64,000 nucleotides of DNA from contig JAQCHP010000007.1 of NCBI GenBank assembly GCA_027619595.1, positions 1-64,000 on the forward strand, in the 5' to 3' direction. The stretch's first letter is position 1, and every line of letters starts with the position of its first letter. Made by a program: the position numbers and the translations under genes. Under the pieces are notes generated by a model, which did not search any database, was not told where the DNA came from, and was given only the letters and a program-made list of their open reading frames with translations. Positions 25,966 to 38,082 of the stretch are shown piece after piece. Source of the DNA: Planctomycetota bacterium. Lineage in GTDB: Bacteria; Planctomycetota; Planctomycetia; Pirellulales; Pirellulaceae.

Positions 25966-26088
25966 GACAACCCTAGCTGAAATTGCGTATAAAGGCCCTA
26001 GTCGGCATGCATCGCACCGGCCCCCTGGCCCCGCCCAGCAGAGTCGGTAAGGCGTCCACTCGGAACCGTGCATCAGAGGTCGAGTCGA

Positions 26089-26751
26089 ATGTTCGTCAAG
26101 GTTCGGATCACATCCGGCAGCAGCACAGGTAAAGAATTAACCTTTCGTGGGAAGCAATTCCTCGTGGGTCGCGCCGACGAATGCAACCTGCGACCCCAAT
26201 CGGACACCATCAGCCGAAGACATTGTCTGATCGAAATTTCCGAGACACGGGCGTCAATTCTTGATCTGGGGAGTCGCAACGGCACGATCGTGAATGGTAA
26301 TCGTGCCGACAAGCCGGTCGAGTTGCATGCCGGTGACTTGGTCTGTGTGGGAGCCCTCAAATTTCAAATCATTGAGTGCCCCCAACCGGCAACCTCAGCA
26401 GCTGCCGCGGCGACCGCCAAGAAAAACGCGAAACTCGCCGGCAACAGCGGTATTATCGGCGACTGGCTGTTAGAAGCAGATAAGGACGCCAAAATACGCG
26501 AATCGACAGCGCAACTTGAAACACGTCAATACGCGTTCGAGGATACCGACCGGATTGACATCGATTCCTCGGTTCGCGAGACGACGGCAGCGGATACGGA
26601 ATCGCAACCCACTGCGGCCGTGCCGAATGCCCACCCGAAGAAAAAGTTGCCACCCGGTAAATTGCCCAAGGTCCCCCCTCGCGAAGACGCTCCTAAAGAT
26701 ACCCAAGAAGCGGCGTCGCAAATGCTCAAGAAATTCTGGAAACGAACCTAA
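26089..26751 (+). CDS. FHA domain protein
   Basis: A 220-residue soluble protein. Residues about 1-95 form an FHA phosphothreonine-binding domain: FLVGRADECNLRP near 24, the SRRHC core near 42, and DLGSRNGTIVNGNRA near 61. Key FHA residues (G-R, S-x-x-H, N-G) are present, so phosphopeptide binding is plausible. The rest is low-complexity and basic (KKKLPPGKLPKVPP) and ends AASQMLKKFWKRT, an apparent amphipathic tail. AGAGG before ATG 26089 supports this start. No kinase gene is adjacent. Confidence 0.85.
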   Translation: MFVKVRITSGSSTGKELTFRGKQFLVGRADECNLRPQSDTISRRHCLIEISETRASILDLGSRNGTIVNGNRADKPVELHAGDLVCVGALKFQIIECPQPATSAAAAATAKKNAKLAGNSGIIGDWLLEADKDAKIRESTAQLETRQYAFEDTDRIDIDSSVRETTAADTESQPTAAVPNAHPKKKLPPGKLPKVPPREDAPKDTQEAASQMLKKFWKRT

Positions 26752-29812: not shown

Positions 29813-31678
29813 CTATTTCCCTGGCAAATTCCAAGCGGCGTCGAAGTCAAGTCGGTCGTCGATTAAGAATTCTAACGTTCTCTTGAGCAGTATCCGTGAT
29901 GGTCCATCTTTGGGCTGTTCTTGCAGAATGCGGCCAAGGATACGACTTGTTTCTTCCAGTTGACCGCGGCCGAACATTTCCAAAGCCTGTTCGTACTGTG
30001 CACAGACCTGTGGGTCCCGATCGGTTGCCTCAACCAGTTCATACAGCGTGACGGGGCGCTCGACGTTTACCAGTCGCACTTGACAAATCGGCCGTGTCTT
30101 GAGGGCATGATGAATGGATTGGAAAGTCGAGTCCGCGATCAATACGGGACAGTCCACGTATTTGGTCGCACCTTGAATACGGCTGGCAATATTGACGGTG
30201 GGCCCCAGCGGCCCGTATTTAAATTTCAATTGCGATCCCGTATTTCCCACACGTACAGGTCCGGTATTTACGCCAATTCCAACCTGCAGTTCATGGTTTA
30301 AGGTCGACTGCCAACGCTCGTTCAATTCGGGCATTTGCCGCAACATCGCAATTGCTGCTCGACAGGCCCGTAGTGCATGATCCGGTTGATGCTCCGGTGC
30401 TCCCCACATCGCGATTAGTTCGTCCCCGATGTAGTCCACCAGTACCCCCTCAAATTCCATCACGCATTGCGACAGGGTCTCCATCACGTCGTTGACCCAA
30501 GCAAAAATCACCGCCGCGGGGAGATTCTCGCTGTGCCGAGTGAAATTTCGAATATCGCAAAACAAGAGGCTCACTTCGGCATCTCGACCTTCCAATAGAT
30601 CGGGTTGACGCTCCAGGTGTTGCGACAGTGTCGTAGAAAAAAACTGATCAAATTGTACTTGGATCTTTTTTCGCCCTTTTTCTTGTTCTAGTCTCAGCAA
30701 GGCCGACGAGACGGCACAGGCGATCATTTCCAAGAGTTGCGCCTGCAACTTCGCAACTTGCATGTGCTCAACATCGTGCTCATGGAACGGCTGACTTGCG
30801 CACAGGACGCCGATGACTTCACCAGCGCGGTTCATGAGTGGTGCCGCGACGATAAAACCCTGTGGGTCGACTGTTCGTCGTATGTCGGTGGACTCCGTAA
30901 AACCGAAAGTAACGCGTTTTTCCCGCAACACGCCGTTCAATGATTCGGCCAGGTCAGGATGAAGTCGCCCCACCATCGATCGGGGCATCGTCTCACGGAT
31001 CCCCACGGTGCTAACGGAATCGACGGTCGCAACATCGGTATCAGAATCGGATAGCAAGGCATTCCGCCAGACTCCAAATTCATTGCGCAAAAACACCCGC
31101 GCCTGTTGGAGCCCCAAGAGTTCCACCGACGCAGTGCAAGCCTGCTGAAACAGTTCATTTTCGGAAGTGGCGTGTTGCAACATATCGACAATTTGTTGTA
31201 GCGTACGAATGAGCGGCTCTAAGCGTGCCAAGTCGCCAGCCAGATCTCGCAATTGATGGACTGGGACGCGGGACGTATCACGAATGGCGGTCCCTGGTGA
31301 CTGCGTTGCATGGCTAAGCGTATGCACGGAAGAAACGGAGGAGCCAATGCGCACGACGCGCGTCCCGACGCGGCAAACAGCAGGCAGGTCAACGATAGCA
31401 ACCTCCCCTGCCGCCAATCGATGCCCGCTGCTGGTGATATCAAGCTGCGTTGTCTGACTGGTATTTCGAATCGCGACGCGGCGATCATCCAGGGGTTCAA
31501 TGACTAACTGCGAACGGCTGACCGACACTTCTTCAGCTGCAGCGAGTACCAACCGCTGGCCATCAAAGGAAAACGGTGGTGGTTCATTGTCACGTTGCCG
31601 TCCCACGTCTACCGCCGACGACGCTTCACAAACGAACACTTCGCTAAACCCGAGGTCAACGGCAATTCGCAGTTTCAT
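29813..31678 (-). CDS. Class III nucleotide cyclase with N-terminal FHA-like and GAF domains
   Basis: A soluble 621-residue signalling enzyme. Residues about 20-115 look like an FHA domain, 155-330 a GAF domain, 365-560 the cyclase domain and the last 60 a TPR-like helix pair. The metal-binding Asp residues are present (FCDIRNF, D375; YIGDE, D419), as are the transition-state Asn and Arg (VNIASR, N496 and R500). The residues that usually select the base differ: Asp415 stands where adenylate cyclases have Lys, and Gly489 where they have Asp or Thr. It is therefore probably active, with cAMP versus cGMP unclear. It lies next to an exporter whose ATPase has a cyclic-nucleotide-binding domain. 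Confidence 0.86.
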   Translation of the reverse strand: MKLRIAVDLGFSEVFVCEASSAVDVGRQRDNEPPPFSFDGQRLVLAAAEEVSVSRSQLVIEPLDDRRVAIRNTSQTTQLDITSSGHRLAAGEVAIVDLPAVCRVGTRVVRIGSSVSSVHTLSHATQSPGTAIRDTSRVPVHQLRDLAGDLARLEPLIRTLQQIVDMLQHATSENELFQQACTASVELLGLQQARVFLRNEFGVWRNALLSDSDTDVATVDSVSTVGIRETMPRSMVGRLHPDLAESLNGVLREKRVTFGFTESTDIRRTVDPQGFIVAAPLMNRAGEVIGVLCASQPFHEHDVEHMQVAKLQAQLLEMIACAVSSALLRLEQEKGRKKIQVQFDQFFSTTLSQHLERQPDLLEGRDAEVSLLFCDIRNFTRHSENLPAAVIFAWVNDVMETLSQCVMEFEGVLVDYIGDELIAMWGAPEHQPDHALRACRAAIAMLRQMPELNERWQSTLNHELQVGIGVNTGPVRVGNTGSQLKFKYGPLGPTVNIASRIQGATKYVDCPVLIADSTFQSIHHALKTRPICQVRLVNVERPVTLYELVEATDRDPQVCAQYEQALEMFGRGQLEETSRILGRILQEQPKDGPSRILLKRTLEFLIDDRLDFDAAWNLPGK

Positions 31679-31896
31679 ATCATTTCCGTATCACTCGACG
31701 GCATCTGCGCCAAGAAAACCATCACCTAAGAACCAGCGCACTCGATACCTAAACTACTGTATCGTCAAGTTGGCTCAACAGGACCGCCGTTACGACGACT
31801 AATTGTCGGCGAATTGCTACAGTCGAACCAACTGGGAATTCGATACAGATCCTACCTACCCACGAGATCGACGCTCGTCTATTCCTTCCTGATTCA

Positions 31897-33222
31897 ATGC
31901 CCCTACCCTCTTGGTTTCACCCTATGCGTTGGGCGGACACTGCAGCATGCACGCGTCTAGCTTTCACCCTCGCGTTCGCGGCGTGCGGTCTGGGGGTCAT
32001 TGGCTGTGCCGGTCACCGATGTCGCAGCGTTACTTCTTCCGCCTGCCGCGTGCCACCAACACTGGCTAGCTACGATCGGACTGCGGCGCGATCGATTGAG
32101 CTGGACACCTCCATCGTATCAGATCCCGGGGATGTAGTCGCGAATTCGCCCCAGCATAAAATTTCGACGAGCCATTACTACGGGCTGTTGGCTAGCGAGT
32201 GCCAACTGCTATCCGCCGCCCATTGTTCCGAGGCCAACCTTCTCGAACAAAAGGCGACGGAACTCGAACAGAGTAAGCAGCATGGTTCATCCCAGGAAGC
32301 GATCGCTCTGCTGGCCAGTGCGTGTCGCGACTTGGCCATCCATTTACGCAATCGATCCGCTGCAGAGGGATTGCGCCTGTATTTTCGCTTGCTCGAAGCC
32401 GAGGGGCAGCGGAACTGGAACGAACTGGCGCTTCATGAGCTAGATAGCGCTCTCGCCGACTATAGACGATTCAAGGACCAAGGGGTGCAGGTATCGACAG
32501 ACGCGTCGCCTCTACATCGACAGCGACATGAACTGCAGGATCAACATGAGCAACTTTGGTTAGCCAGTGCACAAAGTCAAGGCGGAATTCGACTCCAAAT
32601 CGGTCTTTGTGCCAATGACTCCCCACCCATCTGGCCCGCCAGTCGCATTGTCGTGTCAGAGATTATCCCGGATCTCGACGCAACGATCGCGAATGGCCTT
32701 TGCTTGCGTCGCGATCTATCGGCCATGAGACGCCTGTGCCAGTGCGAATCCGGAGCGTTGGACCCCAAGCTGATGGGCATGTTATCGCAAGCTACTCCTT
32801 CGATGGCGATCATCCTTTCGGCAACTTCGTCCGGCAAGGCGTCCGGCACGGCGCAACGATCAATGATATGCTGTTCCTTGGCAGATCAAGAGCAGGTGGT
32901 CGAAGAGGAAATCCGGCAGGCAGCCAGAAGTGTCGAATCGAGCTTAATCCGCATAGCGCTGGCGAAACAAGAATTAGCCCGAACACGGGAGCGGCTTTCT
33001 GAACTTGAATCACTTCGAGGATCTGACCATGTTACCCTGTTCGACCTCTCGGGTGCCCGACTCCAGGTCTTGCGGGTTGAGGGTGAGTTGACGCAACGAG
33101 TGGTCGCCTGGCAGTTGTCGGTTGTTGGACTGTGGGAAGCCACAGGGCAGCTAACCTGTACCGCCGCACCTATTGTCGCTCAAACAGCACCTTCCGCACT
33201 TCTTCCTCCAGCGTTGCACTAG
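31897..33222 (+). CDS. TolC-like outer membrane efflux lipoprotein, divergent
   Basis: A 441-residue protein with a signal peptide and lipobox-like VIGC (Cys near 37). The body is long and helical with features of the TolC/OEP fold: helices around ATELEQSKQ, RLYFRLLEAEGQRN and, near 345-420, SSLIRIALAKQELARTRERLSELE and FDLSGARLQVLRVEGELTQRVVAWQLSVVGLW. Similarity to TolC is by pattern only. It would be the outer membrane exit for the exporter encoded convergently just downstream. Its last 53 bases overlap the end of the ATPase gene on the other strand. Role is inferred from neighbours and could be wrong. Confidence 0.55.
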   Translation: MPLPSWFHPMRWADTAACTRLAFTLAFAACGLGVIGCAGHRCRSVTSSACRVPPTLASYDRTAARSIELDTSIVSDPGDVVANSPQHKISTSHYYGLLASECQLLSAAHCSEANLLEQKATELEQSKQHGSSQEAIALLASACRDLAIHLRNRSAAEGLRLYFRLLEAEGQRNWNELALHELDSALADYRRFKDQGVQVSTDASPLHRQRHELQDQHEQLWLASAQSQGGIRLQIGLCANDSPPIWPASRIVVSEIIPDLDATIANGLCLRRDLSAMRRLCQCESGALDPKLMGMLSQATPSMAIILSATSSGKASGTAQRSMICCSLADQEQVVEEEIRQAARSVESSLIRIALAKQELARTRERLSELESLRGSDHVTLFDLSGARLQVLRVEGELTQRVVAWQLSVVGLWEATGQLTCTAAPIVAQTAPSALLPPALH

Positions 33223-34261
33223 CATCCAGGGAACGTTGAAAGTCTTCTGGACCCAACGTATAGACTTGCAAATCCGATACGGCGACGACCGACGCATTTC
33301 GTGGCTCGTGATTGATCAATGCTGCTTCTCCAAAGAAGCTCCCTTTCGACAGTTCGGCTACCTGCCGCACATTACCGTCCCGCTCGACTTCTACTTTGAC
33401 CCTGCCTTCACGAATCAAATAGAACTTGTCACCCGCGTCACCCTGTCGAATCACGGTGGCCCCCGGCGGAAACGCCTCGAGGAACATTTTGTCAGCCATA
33501 TCGGTCAGCGTGCGCGGCGTCAGTTTCGAAAATACTGGCACATCCTTGAGAAATTCGCAAATGATCCGCGACTCTTGCACGAGCACATTCGATTTGATCC
33601 GACCGTCGACCATTCTCACAATGCGATCGGCGACGTCCAAGATGCGATTATCATGCGTAACGAGTAAAATCGCTGCGCCTTCCTGCTCAGCAAATTCCTG
33701 GAACATCGTAACTACCTCTCGCCCTGATTTCTCATCCAGCGCTGCCGTGGGTTCGTCTGCCAAAATGAGCTTGGGGCGATGCACGAGTCCACGAGCTACG
33801 GCGACTCGTTGCTTCTGCCCTCCTGACAACGACGCCGGTTTAAAATCAATTCGATTTCCAAGTCCCAACCGTGTTAGCAATTCGCGGATACGGCTAGAGA
33901 CTTCTTCAGGACTGAAGTCAAACAAGTCGAGCGCCATTTTGACATTCTGAAACGCCGTCAGTGACTCAAATAAATTGTGTGCTTGAAAAATAAACCCGAT
34001 CCGCCGACGCAAGGCAATTCGGTCGTCGTCCGTGGCGCCGAGCAACTGTTGGCCAAGCACCTCCAAGCTCCCTTCCTGCACGCTTCGCAGCGTTCCGATT
34101 AGCGTCAACAACGTTGTTTTCCCTGACCCAGACGGGCCGGTCATGATCACTATTTCTCCCGGTTCAATCTGTAATTGGTTGTCGAACAGGACCTGCTTGC
34201 GCAGATTCCCTGAGCCGAAATAGTGCTGAACACCTTGTATCTTCACCGCTTGAGATGTCAC
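33170..34261 (-). CDS. DevA-like ABC exporter ATPase fused to a cyclic-nucleotide-binding domain
   Basis: Residues 1-235 are an ABC ATPase of the DevA/LolD/MacB type: Walker A GPSGSGKT at 42-49, signature LSGGQ at 145-149, Walker B LILADEP at 165-171 and the switch His in THD near 202. Residues about 240-360 are a cNMP-binding domain (CRP/PKA-R fold). Its phosphate-binding cassette reads FFGEAALI and PRNASV, keeping the Glu and Arg that bind ribose and cyclic phosphate. DevA proteins normally end after the ATPase domain, so the fusion is unusual. GTG 34261 is chosen because it follows the upstream permease stop. The gene is last in the MFP-permease-permease-ATPase operon. Confidence 0.88.
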   Translation of the reverse strand: MTSQAVKIQGVQHYFGSGNLRKQVLFDNQLQIEPGEIVIMTGPSGSGKTTLLTLIGTLRSVQEGSLEVLGQQLLGATDDDRIALRRRIGFIFQAHNLFESLTAFQNVKMALDLFDFSPEEVSSRIRELLTRLGLGNRIDFKPASLSGGQKQRVAVARGLVHRPKLILADEPTAALDEKSGREVVTMFQEFAEQEGAAILLVTHDNRILDVADRIVRMVDGRIKSNVLVQESRIICEFLKDVPVFSKLTPRTLTDMADKMFLEAFPPGATVIRQGDAGDKFYLIREGRVKVEVERDGNVRQVAELSKGSFFGEAALINHEPRNASVVAVSDLQVYTLGPEDFQRSLDASATLEEEVRKVLFERQ

Positions 34262-34289
34262 GTAACGTTTTCTTTCTTTGCCTGATCCG

Positions 34290-35459
34290 CTAGAAGAGTT
34301 CCGCCGGGTCGACTTCAAGGAGCTTGCGGAGCGCCATGATCCCGGAAACAACGCACATCAGCATTGTCAGCAAAAATACCGCTATGGCTCGCTGGACATT
34401 CATTACCAACAGCAGGCCCGTCCAGGACGAAAGGGCCTGGAACAGGAGGATACTGATGAGGCAACCCGGTACGAAACTTAGGAAGGAAAGATAACACGAC
34501 TGCTGCAAAATCAGTCCATAAAAATAACGGCTTCGGTAACCCATTGCCTTCAGGGTAGCAAATTCCCCCATGTGATCTGATATGTCGGAATGGATGACTT
34601 GATAGCAAACGATCATACCGACCACGAACCCAACGATCGTTCCCATAGAAAAAACGAATCCGATTGGTGTGCTGCGGTTCCAGAACAAGATTTCATTCCC
34701 GATGAATTTCTGTCTTTCGAAAACCTTAACGTCCTGCGGCAAAATTTTCGTAAGGTGCGCCACTGCCAGGTCGACAGAAGCGTGGGGATGCAGGTGCACG
34801 ACGCCCATATCAACGCGACTCAAGGTATCCCCACCGGGAACACGGGCTGGAAAGAATTTCCGGAAATTCTCCGCACCCATCAAGACGTTTCCATCGTTGA
34901 CGAAATCGGTACCAAGTTGAAACGAGCCAACGAGTCTTAACGTCCTACCCGACAGCTCCGCCTTCTGCTGCGTAATCTCGGCTGCCTTCCGCACAATCCC
35001 CAAAACCCGTTTGCTCATTCGATCGATCAGAGCCGTGCCCGGCTCGCTGAGCAATTCCAACGCGTCGTTGACCTCGGGCAAGTTGAAGACTCGATCTCCG
35101 GGACGAAATGCCAAAACACGAATCGGGTAGGCTTTGTGCCCCAGCGACTGCCAGATTCCGTTTTCGATATATAGGGGATAGGTCGCGGCCACTTCTGGAC
35201 AGGCGCGTGCCTGAAACAGTCGCTGTCGTGGGAATCCTTCGGCGGACACCAACGAATACTGGGCGCTACTGACGATAAGTATCTGGCCGTCCAACCGTTT
35301 AAGGACCTCGACCGTACTGTCGAACAGAGCGTTCTTAAACCCAGTCTGCATGAACATCAAGACAACGGCAAAACCGATACCACTGACGGCGATGGCCAAG
35401 CGTCGCCAGTCGTAGAATAAATTGAGCAGCGCCAGCGGAGTACTGCGAAGTGAGAACAT
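34290..35459 (-). CDS. DevC-like ABC exporter permease (second)
   Basis: A 389-residue permease of the FtsX/MacB type with one N-terminal helix, a large periplasmic domain and three C-terminal helices. The phrase GEFATLKAMGYRSRYFYGLILQ near 310 is characteristic of DevC. Near the N-terminus, LALLNLFYDWRRLAIAVSGI and VVLMFMQTGF are also DevC-like. It directly follows the first permease with a gap of under 20 bases, so the exporter probably has a heterodimeric membrane part. ATG 35459 is chosen over GTG 35468. Confidence 0.87.
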   Translation of the reverse strand: MFSLRSTPLALLNLFYDWRRLAIAVSGIGFAVVLMFMQTGFKNALFDSTVEVLKRLDGQILIVSSAQYSLVSAEGFPRQRLFQARACPEVAATYPLYIENGIWQSLGHKAYPIRVLAFRPGDRVFNLPEVNDALELLSEPGTALIDRMSKRVLGIVRKAAEITQQKAELSGRTLRLVGSFQLGTDFVNDGNVLMGAENFRKFFPARVPGGDTLSRVDMGVVHLHPHASVDLAVAHLTKILPQDVKVFERQKFIGNEILFWNRSTPIGFVFSMGTIVGFVVGMIVCYQVIHSDISDHMGEFATLKAMGYRSRYFYGLILQQSCYLSFLSFVPGCLISILLFQALSSWTGLLLVMNVQRAIAVFLLTMLMCVVSGIMALRKLLEVDPAELF

Positions 35460-35476
35460 TTCGTGCACACTCCGTA

Positions 35477-36631
35477 TTAAAAAAGATCAACCGGGTCGGC
35501 CGATCCAAGTTTTCTAGCCGCCGCCCAACCCGATAGGCTACAAATCGACACGGCCAACACAAACACGAAAATGACCCGCAGTGTATTCATTTGAATTGGA
35601 ATCAAGGCTACCCGAGCCGTCAATTGGTACAGAGCCGCCGCCAAAGCCAATCCTGGTACGAACCCCAAGACCGCTAGCATGATCGCCTGCGATAGGACGA
35701 CCCTCGATAAAGCAGCGGTGGAATATCCCATCGCCTTGAGAGTTGCATATTCTCGCAACTGTTGCGCCACGTCACTGGAAAGCACTTGATAGACGATCGC
35801 GATTCCGACGACAAATGAAATGGCAACTCCCATTTGAAAAATAATGCCCAGCGAGGTCCCCTGCGTCCATCTCAGCCGTTCCCGTTGCACAGCCTCGTCA
35901 CGAGTCAAGACTTCGACATCGTGGGGAAGGTCACGATTCAGCCTCGCAGCGGATTCGACGATATCGGCACCTGGCTTCAAACGAATGAGTCCGAGACTGC
36001 GTTGATTTGCCAGGCCCCCTTCGGCAAGCTCCTCGAGGTGGCTGACGCTAAGCAACATCAATCCATCCGACGCAAAGCCACCACCCAATTCGAAGTGGCC
36101 GACAATCGTGACGCTTTTCCCTGCAACTTCGACACGCGTCCCCAAATCTGCGTCACCGAATCGCTGGCCATTTTGCGGTCCAAACTCAGGACGCGACTTG
36201 CGGTCAATCAAGACGCTGGATGGCTGTACTAGGGCAGAAACTTTGCTCTGCATCTCGGGCAATCGAAAAGGGGAGTCGAGCGGATCGACGCCAATGGAAA
36301 AGATCCGCCGTTTCCGCGGCTGTTCGGGATGATGCCAGGGAAAAAGCCCCAGTGTCAAGGATTGGGTCGCCTGCACCGTCGACGCCGAGGCGACTTGGTA
36401 CATCCGTTCCTGAGGAAACGACCCCGCGGCAGATAAATGTAGATAATTCGAAGACCGCATGATCAGATCGAATTCCAGCGCATCGAAAAGTAGTGATGCC
36501 GTTGACTCTACCGACCCTAGGAATCCCAACTGCATGAAAATCAACACAACGGACAGCGTGACCCCCGCGGCAGCTGCAAACGTACGCATACGGTGGTGTA
36601 GCAAATTCGAAATCGCCAGTGGCGTTTTCAT
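35477..36631 (-). CDS. DevC-like ABC exporter permease (first)
   Basis: A 384-residue FtsX-type permease with an N-terminal helix (FAAAAGVTLSVVLIFMQLGF), a periplasmic domain, and three C-terminal helices with REYATLKAMGYSTAALSRVVL near 290. It resembles the neighbouring permease in layout but is clearly diverged from it, suggesting an old duplication. In Anabaena, a single DevC works with DevA and DevB to export heterocyst glycolipid via TolC. Having two genes here is a variation on this plan. Confidence 0.87.
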   Translation of the reverse strand: MKTPLAISNLLHHRMRTFAAAAGVTLSVVLIFMQLGFLGSVESTASLLFDALEFDLIMRSSNYLHLSAAGSFPQERMYQVASASTVQATQSLTLGLFPWHHPEQPRKRRIFSIGVDPLDSPFRLPEMQSKVSALVQPSSVLIDRKSRPEFGPQNGQRFGDADLGTRVEVAGKSVTIVGHFELGGGFASDGLMLLSVSHLEELAEGGLANQRSLGLIRLKPGADIVESAARLNRDLPHDVEVLTRDEAVQRERLRWTQGTSLGIIFQMGVAISFVVGIAIVYQVLSSDVAQQLREYATLKAMGYSTAALSRVVLSQAIMLAVLGFVPGLALAAALYQLTARVALIPIQMNTLRVIFVFVLAVSICSLSGWAAARKLGSADPVDLF

Positions 36632-36652
36632 GACATACACCACATACACAAG

Positions 36653-37846
36653 TTAGGGGCGGGCTACGGCGGTTTCGTCGATGATGTTGACATCGACTTG
36701 CAAGTTACACAACCGGCTCGCCTGGGAGACGCCATCCTGGTCCAGGTCGATCACAACCTCCACCACGCGCCGGTCCGCCATGGCAAGTGGATCGAGACTG
36801 CGCAATTCCGGCGTCACGATGGTCTGCGCAACACGACGAACGATTCCGCGCAACCCTTCCTCGTCGTACGGCTTCTCAAAAGCACTGCTGGTAACTCGAG
36901 CGATTTGACCGGGACGCACCCGCTTGATTTCTGTCTCATAGACTTCCGCCACCACGACCATGCGTGACAAATCTGCGAGATGGAACAACGGACCACGTAA
37001 CGTTTCGCCGGTACGAGCAAGCAAATTGAGGACAGTCCCGTCCGTAGGGGACACAATCTCTGACTCTTTCAGTCGAGCGGCGGCCAGATCACGTTGTTTT
37101 TCTAACGATCGGAGCGGAACAGCGGTCAAGACGTGTTCCAAGCTGGCACGCGTCGATTCGGCATCGGCACGCGCCGCTTGTAGTCGCAGATCTCGCGTTT
37201 GCTGCAATTTTTTTAACATGGCATCGTTCGCAGCCACTTCGGCGATTGCGCGGTCCAAGAGAATTCGTTGCTGATCCGACTCTTGGTCCGTCACCAAATT
37301 GCTGCGCTGTGCTCGCACCGTCTGAAGTCGCTCGAAATCCTTTTGAGCGACTTCGCGATTGCGGACGGATAACTCCAGTTTCGTTTTTTGAGCCGCGATG
37401 TCCAGCTCCACCGTCTCCGCCTCCGCTACTGCCAAATCAGCGACGCGAATTCGAGACATCGCCAGTTTCTCTTCCGATTGGTACCGCGACTTGGCTTCGT
37501 CGTATTGTGCACTGATCGCCTCATATTCTAATTGTCGCTGCTGACGACTCGCCATTTGAGCGATCGGCTGGCCCGAACGAACTTGATCTCCGGTCGCCAC
37601 GTTCAATTCTTCCAGACGATCTCCTACGAGTCCCGAAACCTCCACGATGCCATCCGCGGGCTCGATTCGTCCCAACGCGATGACTCCGCGTTCACTGTGG
37701 TTCGCCGACCAGGAAACACGACTCCCCGCCACTGCCAACGCAGCGTCAGGAGAACGTGCCGAGGTCGTCACCGGCCGCGCCACTTGCCAATACACGGCGC
37801 CGCCAATTAGAGTGACCGCTAGAAAACTCAGCAACCAGAATTTCAC
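36653..37846 (-). CDS. DevB/HlyD-like membrane fusion protein
   Basis: A 397-residue periplasmic adaptor. It has an N-terminal membrane anchor (FWLLSFLAVTLIGGAVYW), a lipoyl/barrel-sandwich half with GRIEPADGIVEVSGLVGDRLEEL near 60, a long coiled-coil hairpin (about 90-245, with repeated Ala/Glu/Arg heptads), then the second lipoyl half SPTDGTVLNLLARTGE near 268 and beta-barrel domains. It should bridge the DevC permeases to an outer membrane channel. GTG 37846 with AAGGGA upstream is preferred; GTG 37895-37897 would add 17 residues. It is the first gene of the exporter operon. Confidence 0.86.
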   Translation of the reverse strand: MKFWLLSFLAVTLIGGAVYWQVARPVTTSARSPDAALAVAGSRVSWSANHSERGVIALGRIEPADGIVEVSGLVGDRLEELNVATGDQVRSGQPIAQMASRQQRQLEYEAISAQYDEAKSRYQSEEKLAMSRIRVADLAVAEAETVELDIAAQKTKLELSVRNREVAQKDFERLQTVRAQRSNLVTDQESDQQRILLDRAIAEVAANDAMLKKLQQTRDLRLQAARADAESTRASLEHVLTAVPLRSLEKQRDLAAARLKESEIVSPTDGTVLNLLARTGETLRGPLFHLADLSRMVVVAEVYETEIKRVRPGQIARVTSSAFEKPYDEEGLRGIVRRVAQTIVTPELRSLDPLAMADRRVVEVVIDLDQDGVSQASRLCNLQVDVNIIDETAVARP

Positions 37847-38082
37847 CGTAGTCCCTTGTCGAAGTAGTCCCTGGTGGAAGAAGGCGATTGAAATCACCTA
37901 CGAATCGGCAGCCGTGATCCACGCGGAACGGTTTGTACCACTGAACGATACCCTAGGTCGAGAAGAAATTCCACCGGCGTCTGCTAGCTAATCCAACGCT
38001 GGCGGGAGACATTCGGACGAATTGCTGGCCTACACGACTGGCCGGTTATTTGACGGAACATCCTAGCGAAGGCTAAATACTC

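Follow-up and report, generated by a model that had tools for sequence, protein, structure and literature searches.

A DevBCA-type exporter in planctomycetes with a cyclic-nucleotide-binding domain on its ATPase, a candidate for second-messenger control of export

The DevBCA-HgdD system exports heterocyst glycolipids in Anabaena, and its relatives are found in drug resistance (PMC8277102, PMC5985334). HetC, a peptidase ABC exporter of Nostoc, carries an N-terminal cyclic-nucleotide-binding domain (cNBD) that is needed for function and binds ppGpp (Kd ~59 µM), not cAMP; this domain was aligned with Crp/Fnr/NtcA and not with the PKA type (PMC10986499). Transinhibition of MetNI and ModBC, as well as the fusion of MFS transporters to cNBDs, are both covered in a review (PMC10710835). 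The locus described here, from a bacterium of the order Pirellulales (assembly GCA_027619595.1), bears a second-messenger domain on the ATPase of a DevBCA-type exporter, which is a newly seen combination. A literature search with little coverage of subscription journals retrieved no description of a DevA-cNBD fusion. The novelty that a first-pass annotation of this DNA had ascribed to the fused domain therefore stands for DevBCA within the literature searched, but does not extend to ABC exporters at large, of which HetC is a known example with a cNBD (PMC10986499).

The exporter operon and its fused ATPase

The window, that is, the whole stretch of 64,000 nucleotides analysed (contig JAQCHP010000007.1, positions 1–64,000), contains a four-gene operon, devB-devC1-devC2-devA, on the minus strand, with gaps of 3, 8 and 28 bp. 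It encodes a DevB-family membrane-fusion adaptor (36653–37897; TIGR02971, 204 bits, cut-off 129), a DevC-like permease (devC1, 35477–36649; TIGR01185, 285.8 bits, slightly below the cut-off of 290.35), a second DevC permease of the FtsX/MacB type (devC2, 34290–35468; TIGR01185, 334.3 bits, same cut-off) and, as the last gene, the DevA-cNBD fusion ATPase (33170–34261), a single unbroken frame with a GTG start. DevA, DevB and one DevC thus score above the curated cut-offs for DevBCA-type membership, the other DevC falling just short, and the positions of both permeases match those at other loci. On the plus strand, a gene for a TolC-like outer-membrane factor (31897–33222) is convergent with devA, sharing 53 bp with its 3' end; its match to PF02321 (OEP) is weak (20.4 bits, below the cut-off of 22). 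Relatives adjoin the fusion at 36 of the 93 loci, and of the loci with long flanks about half have a TolC-like gene close by. The first-pass annotation had placed a TolC-like gene between the ATPase and a cyclase; the position holds, and relatives recur there in other genomes, but the family match is weak. The ATPase, cyclase and TolC-like genes that it listed are present, but the list omitted both DevC permeases, the DevB adaptor and the operon structure.

The fusion consists of a DevA-type ABC ATPase domain (residues 1–225; 33587–34261, minus strand; TIGR02982, 345.9 bits, cut-off 295.8; PF00005, 113 bits) followed in the same frame by a C-terminal cNBD (residues 226–363; 33173–33586, minus strand; PF00027, 82.4 bits, cut-off 27.5), in agreement with the earlier reading of a DevA-type ATPase joined to a CRP/PKA-like domain. 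The AlphaFold model of the full-length protein has a pLDDT of 87; its best whole-length matches in the PDB are MetN and the nucleotide-binding domains (NBDs) of other importers that possess C-terminal regulatory domains, and its NBD part matches the NBDs of MacB, LolD and YbbA. The isolated cNBD (pLDDT 87.5) is predicted to resemble most closely the cNBDs of PKG and PKA with bound cNMP, an assignment with which the sequence profile agrees, and its structural neighbours include trypanosome PKA regulatory subunits that have been described as independent of cAMP.

Residues 310–325 form a phosphate-binding cassette, FGEAALINHEPRNASV (33287–33334, minus strand), exactly as previously written and described as intact. 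Across 94 distinct fusion proteins, F310, G311, L315 and A323 are invariant, and both E312 and R321 are found in 93. Mean column identity over the cNBD is 51% (alignment A4), in contrast to the near-complete conservation of the ligand-contact residues. Residue 322, which follows the cassette Arg, is Asn in 82 of the 94 proteins, whereas the cAMP and cGMP receptors that have been studied most have Ala or Thr there. Together, these residues and the predicted fold point to a closed phosphate pocket in the cNBD. A single fusion (L068:69-1148, genome G033) lacks both the cassette Glu, replaced by Lys, and the cassette Arg, replaced by Ser, and is a candidate for a naturally ligand-blind form.

Spread and origins of the fusion

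The fusion was found in 68 of 297 genomes of the order, once per genome, as full-length or near full-length matches with 49–69% identity, a degree of retention that argues against a chance joining. It is rarer outside the order: the 294 genomes of the phylum draw yielded two more full-length fusions, and a scan of 84,980 species genomes added cases in Gemmataceae, the Verrucomicrobia IMCC26134, an Opitutaceae MAG, two deltaproteobacterial MAGs, Azospira and cyanobacteria. The carriers include a culturable species, Adhaeretor mobilis (L108). Cyanobacterial fusions are rare (2 of 244 genomes) and carry two tandem cNBDs. Two other cyanobacterial candidates (L147 and L148) were rejected, since the cNBD there belongs to an MscS-like channel encoded close to an ordinary devBCA.

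In a maximum-likelihood tree of the DevA domain, the cyanobacterial fusions lie inside unfused cyanobacterial DevAs, and the remaining fusions form another clade. Branches with good support require two or more changes between the fused and unfused states, a lower bound given that some backbone branches are weak. The cNBD was therefore gained at least twice independently, once in the planctomycete type and once as the cyanobacterial double cNBD. A C-terminal GAF domain occupies the place of the cNBD in the DevA of a planctomycete (L103:1495-2814) and of a Myxococcota MAG (L149:12429-13724); by eye, both GAFs show an N-K/R...F...DE-like motif known from cNMP-binding GAFs. Taken with the cNBD gains, these fusions indicate that the C-terminus of DevA has received sensor domains repeatedly.

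Planctomycete loci mostly keep the order DevB-DevC1-DevC2-DevA::cNBD on one strand, and in several genera devA is divergent from devB. No biosynthetic gene that would name the cargo was found conserved beside the planctomycete module, where wide recurrence is limited to DevB, DevC, the fusion and the TolC-like gene. Several non-planctomycete fusions lie near putative lipid-synthesis genes (L145:4067-5896, L218:1-6382, L133:12544-16518): the cyanobacterial neighbours, named by eye, are FAAL-like ligase, AONS/SPT-like and KDSR-like genes, and the verrucomicrobial one is a KS-ACP-DH-aminotransferase polyketide synthase according to Pfam.

Class III cyclases beside the exporter and across genomes

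Beyond the TolC-like gene lies a gene for a class III nucleotidyl cyclase (29813–31678, minus strand; PF00211, 69 bits, residues 367–506), with a GAF domain (28 bits, residues 174–309) and an FHA-like N-terminus. The protein appears cytosolic, with no transmembrane segment found in it, and 1.49 kb separates its start from the stop of the ATPase gene, which bears out the earlier report of a GAF-containing cyclase within 1.5 kb. The FHA-like domain claimed in the same report fared less evenly: the N-terminus has no Pfam match to FHA, but a GR...SRxH...N pattern is common there among the orthologues, and the orthologue profile weakly matches the FHA domain of TIFA (E=0.007). A clear FHA-domain protein (PF00498, 63 bits) is encoded separately at 26068–26751, 3 kb beyond the cyclase.

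The two metal-binding Asp residues and the transition-state Asn and Arg are present in the cyclase (FCDIRNFT, YIGDE, VNIASR) and kept in its orthologues. At the positions of the motifs GVLVDY and KYGPLG, read as the base-selecting sites of class III cyclases, Lys is replaced by Asp and Asp by Gly, respectively, in this protein and at 29 aligned orthologous loci. The pair of base-selecting Lys and Asp expected of an adenylate cyclase is accordingly absent, and the sequence by itself names no substrate. The same Asp and Gly are invariant in the FHA-like/GAF cyclase family of the order (window 30161–30580 and L189–L217), which keeps the catalytic residues and is a candidate for a substrate class of its own.

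The cyclase and the TolC-like gene are divergent, and neither shares an operon with devA. Orthologues of the cyclase (35–42% identity over the full length) are widespread, located away from the fusion (e.g., in G024, G151 and G167), and present in fusion-free genomes too. The 66 other fusion genomes surveyed contain 165 PF00211 matches, and three of them encode a cyclase no more than 10 kb from the fusion, compared with 0.58 expected (P ~0.02, rising to ~0.11 when G179 and G187, of one genus, are counted once). In those two genomes the TolC-like gene has a HAMP cyclase with the usual Lys as its same-strand neighbour, ~75 bp away, and in G038, where the fusion runs off the contig end so that the cNBD is outside the visible sequence, an FHA cyclase next to a kinase flanks the exporter module. 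The Ser/Thr kinase and FHA cyclase genes of G038 overlap each other and are divergent from the exporter devB (L219:8240-12566). In the cyanobacterial locus L144, from a genome with 15 cyclases, a CHASE2 cyclase follows downstream on the same strand. The cyclases flanking fusions thus belong to unlike types (HAMP, FHA, CHASE2), and a search for a dedicated cyclase partner across 66 genomes and 93 distinct fusion loci returned sporadic, unrelated cyclases only. Given these counts, the unlike types and the orthologues elsewhere, the closeness of cyclase and exporter in the window amounts to no more than a weak tendency and is mostly a local coincidence, and the role of dedicated partner previously proposed for the GAF/FHA cyclase is not borne out.

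The link between cyclases and the fusion is better at the genome level than by adjacency. All 67 other fusion genomes encode a class III cyclase, in contrast to 170 of 229 fusion-free genomes (Fisher test, 5e-8, a descriptive value that ignores phylogeny); fusions that never co-occur with a cyclase, which the first-pass annotation had named as evidence against its proposal, are not what these genomes contain. The genome of the window (96% complete) encodes four cyclases and two PF00027 proteins, namely the fusion itself and a regulator resembling Crp/Fnr, in which the cassette, FGELSLLESGSRGEYCEAA, is non-canonical and lacks the canonical spacing. In G171 (97% complete), which has three cyclases, the fusion is the sole PF00027 protein; most fusion genomes have several others, up to ten. 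Alternatively, the true targets of the cyclases could be Crp-like or GAF receptors that PF00027 fails to detect. Elsewhere in the genome of the window, contig C76 carries a second exporter, composed of an HlyD-like adaptor, a DevA-like ATPase devoid of a cNBD and an FtsX-like permease (L003:190-3354, L006:312-3356), which ends 43 bp from a convergent gene for a TPR-like class III cyclase; two of the four cyclases of this genome abut ABC exporters.

Proposed control of export and comparison with known systems

The sequence and the predicted fold make it fairly probable, in our judgement, that a cyclic mononucleotide allosterically gates this DevBCA-type exporter through the C-terminal domain of its ATPase, with the genome-wide cNMP pool as the source. 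The conserved canonical cassette on DevA makes cyclic-nucleotide control of export the best reading; this part of the original proposal is retained, but not the idea that the signal comes specifically from the GAF or FHA input of the neighbour. The complex would be a tripartite MacB-type exporter of the DevBCA family, built from DevB, two DevC permeases that probably pair as a heterodimer, DevA and the nearby TolC-like duct. A 3',5'-cyclic mononucleotide would seat in the PKA-type cassette, with E312 contacting the ribose and R321 the cyclic phosphate, and its binding would move the C-terminal helices, altering the ease with which the two NBDs close on ATP. Export would in this way be switched on or off directly, without transcription; that the empty cNBD restrains the exporter and the ligand releases it is a guess, which we favour only slightly. 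The signal would be the cell pool produced by several class III cyclases and not specifically by the neighbour. What is exported is probably an envelope molecule of lipid or glycolipid-like nature, as proposed from the DevBCA analogy and from the lipid-synthesis genes, only suggestive, beside fusions in other phyla. The gene order, the joining of the two domains, the conserved cassette residues, the predicted fold, the breadth of the fusion and its two or more origins are results of the analysis; within this model we infer ligand binding, ligand identity, the direction of control and the cargo.

A dedicated local circuit, in which the neighbouring GAF/FHA cyclase responds to a signal by making a product that specifically gates this exporter, would fit the adjacency in the window, the cyclases near the TolC-like gene in G179 and G187, the exporter in G038 and the fusion in L144, as well as the excess of nearby cyclases over expectation. 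That excess shrinks once the two congeneric genomes are counted together, the flanking cyclases are of unlike types, the orthologues of the window cyclase reside elsewhere and the gene is outside the devA operon; we regard such a circuit as unlikely, and much less likely than general cyclic-nucleotide control. We also give little credence, and no more than to the local circuit, to the idea that the cNBD binds another nucleotide (ppGpp, a purine nucleoside or a cyclic dinucleotide), linking export to nutrient stress and not to class III cyclases. The binding of ppGpp by the HetC domain, the cAMP-independent trypanosome subunits among the structural neighbours and the predominant Asn at residue 322 speak for it; the retention of the ribose-holding Glu and the cyclic-phosphate-holding Arg, each in all but one of the fusion proteins, and the presence of a class III cyclase in every fusion genome speak against it.

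Finally, the cNBD might be a structural add-on for assembly or dimerisation that senses no ligand. MlaF dimerises through a C-terminal extension (PMC7367683), and the L068 fusion remains in frame after losing both the Glu and the Arg, but the ligand-contact residues are conserved almost completely while the rest of the domain varies, and sensor domains have been attached repeatedly and independently, so that we consider this explanation highly improbable.

Export by MacB/DevBCA-type systems is usually discussed as being set by gene expression. Should gating of the exporter by a cyclic mononucleotide be correct, a lipid-type exporter would be under direct second-messenger control, and a receptor for planctomycete class III cyclases would be at hand; G171, with its single PF00027 protein and three cyclases, makes the question directly testable. 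A bolder claim, which we hold to be doubtful, is that the main target of class III cyclases in these planctomycetes is an ABC exporter and not a transcription factor or a channel. In that same reading the messenger may not be cAMP, considering the Asp and Gly at the base-selecting positions of the FHA-like/GAF cyclase family.

Compared with DevBCA-HgdD, the locus has the same DevB, DevC and DevA families according to curated models, a separate gene for the NBD (PMC8277102) and an expected TolC-type duct, but differs in the C-terminal cNBD on DevA, in having two DevC genes instead of one, and in its nearby TolC-like gene where DevBCA relies on the shared, distant HgdD. With HetC it has in common an ABC exporter bearing a cNBD on its cytosolic part, a likeness known only at the level of two generic domains; unlike the DevA fusion, HetC is a single-chain peptidase exporter whose ppGpp-binding domain is N-terminal. 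By analogy, HetC serves as a warning against assuming that the cNBD of an exporter binds cAMP or cGMP. As in MetNI and ModBC, a ligand-binding domain stands behind the NBD, and MetN ranks with the best PDB matches of the full-length model (PMC10710835), although those systems are importers that sense their own substrate through another regulatory fold, whereas here a second-messenger domain is attached to an exporter. Finally, the cNBD resembles those of PKG/PKA and of MloK1/SthK in its cassette sequence and predicted fold, but differs from them in the Asn that follows the cassette Arg and in its output, which would be an ABC ATPase and not a kinase or a channel.
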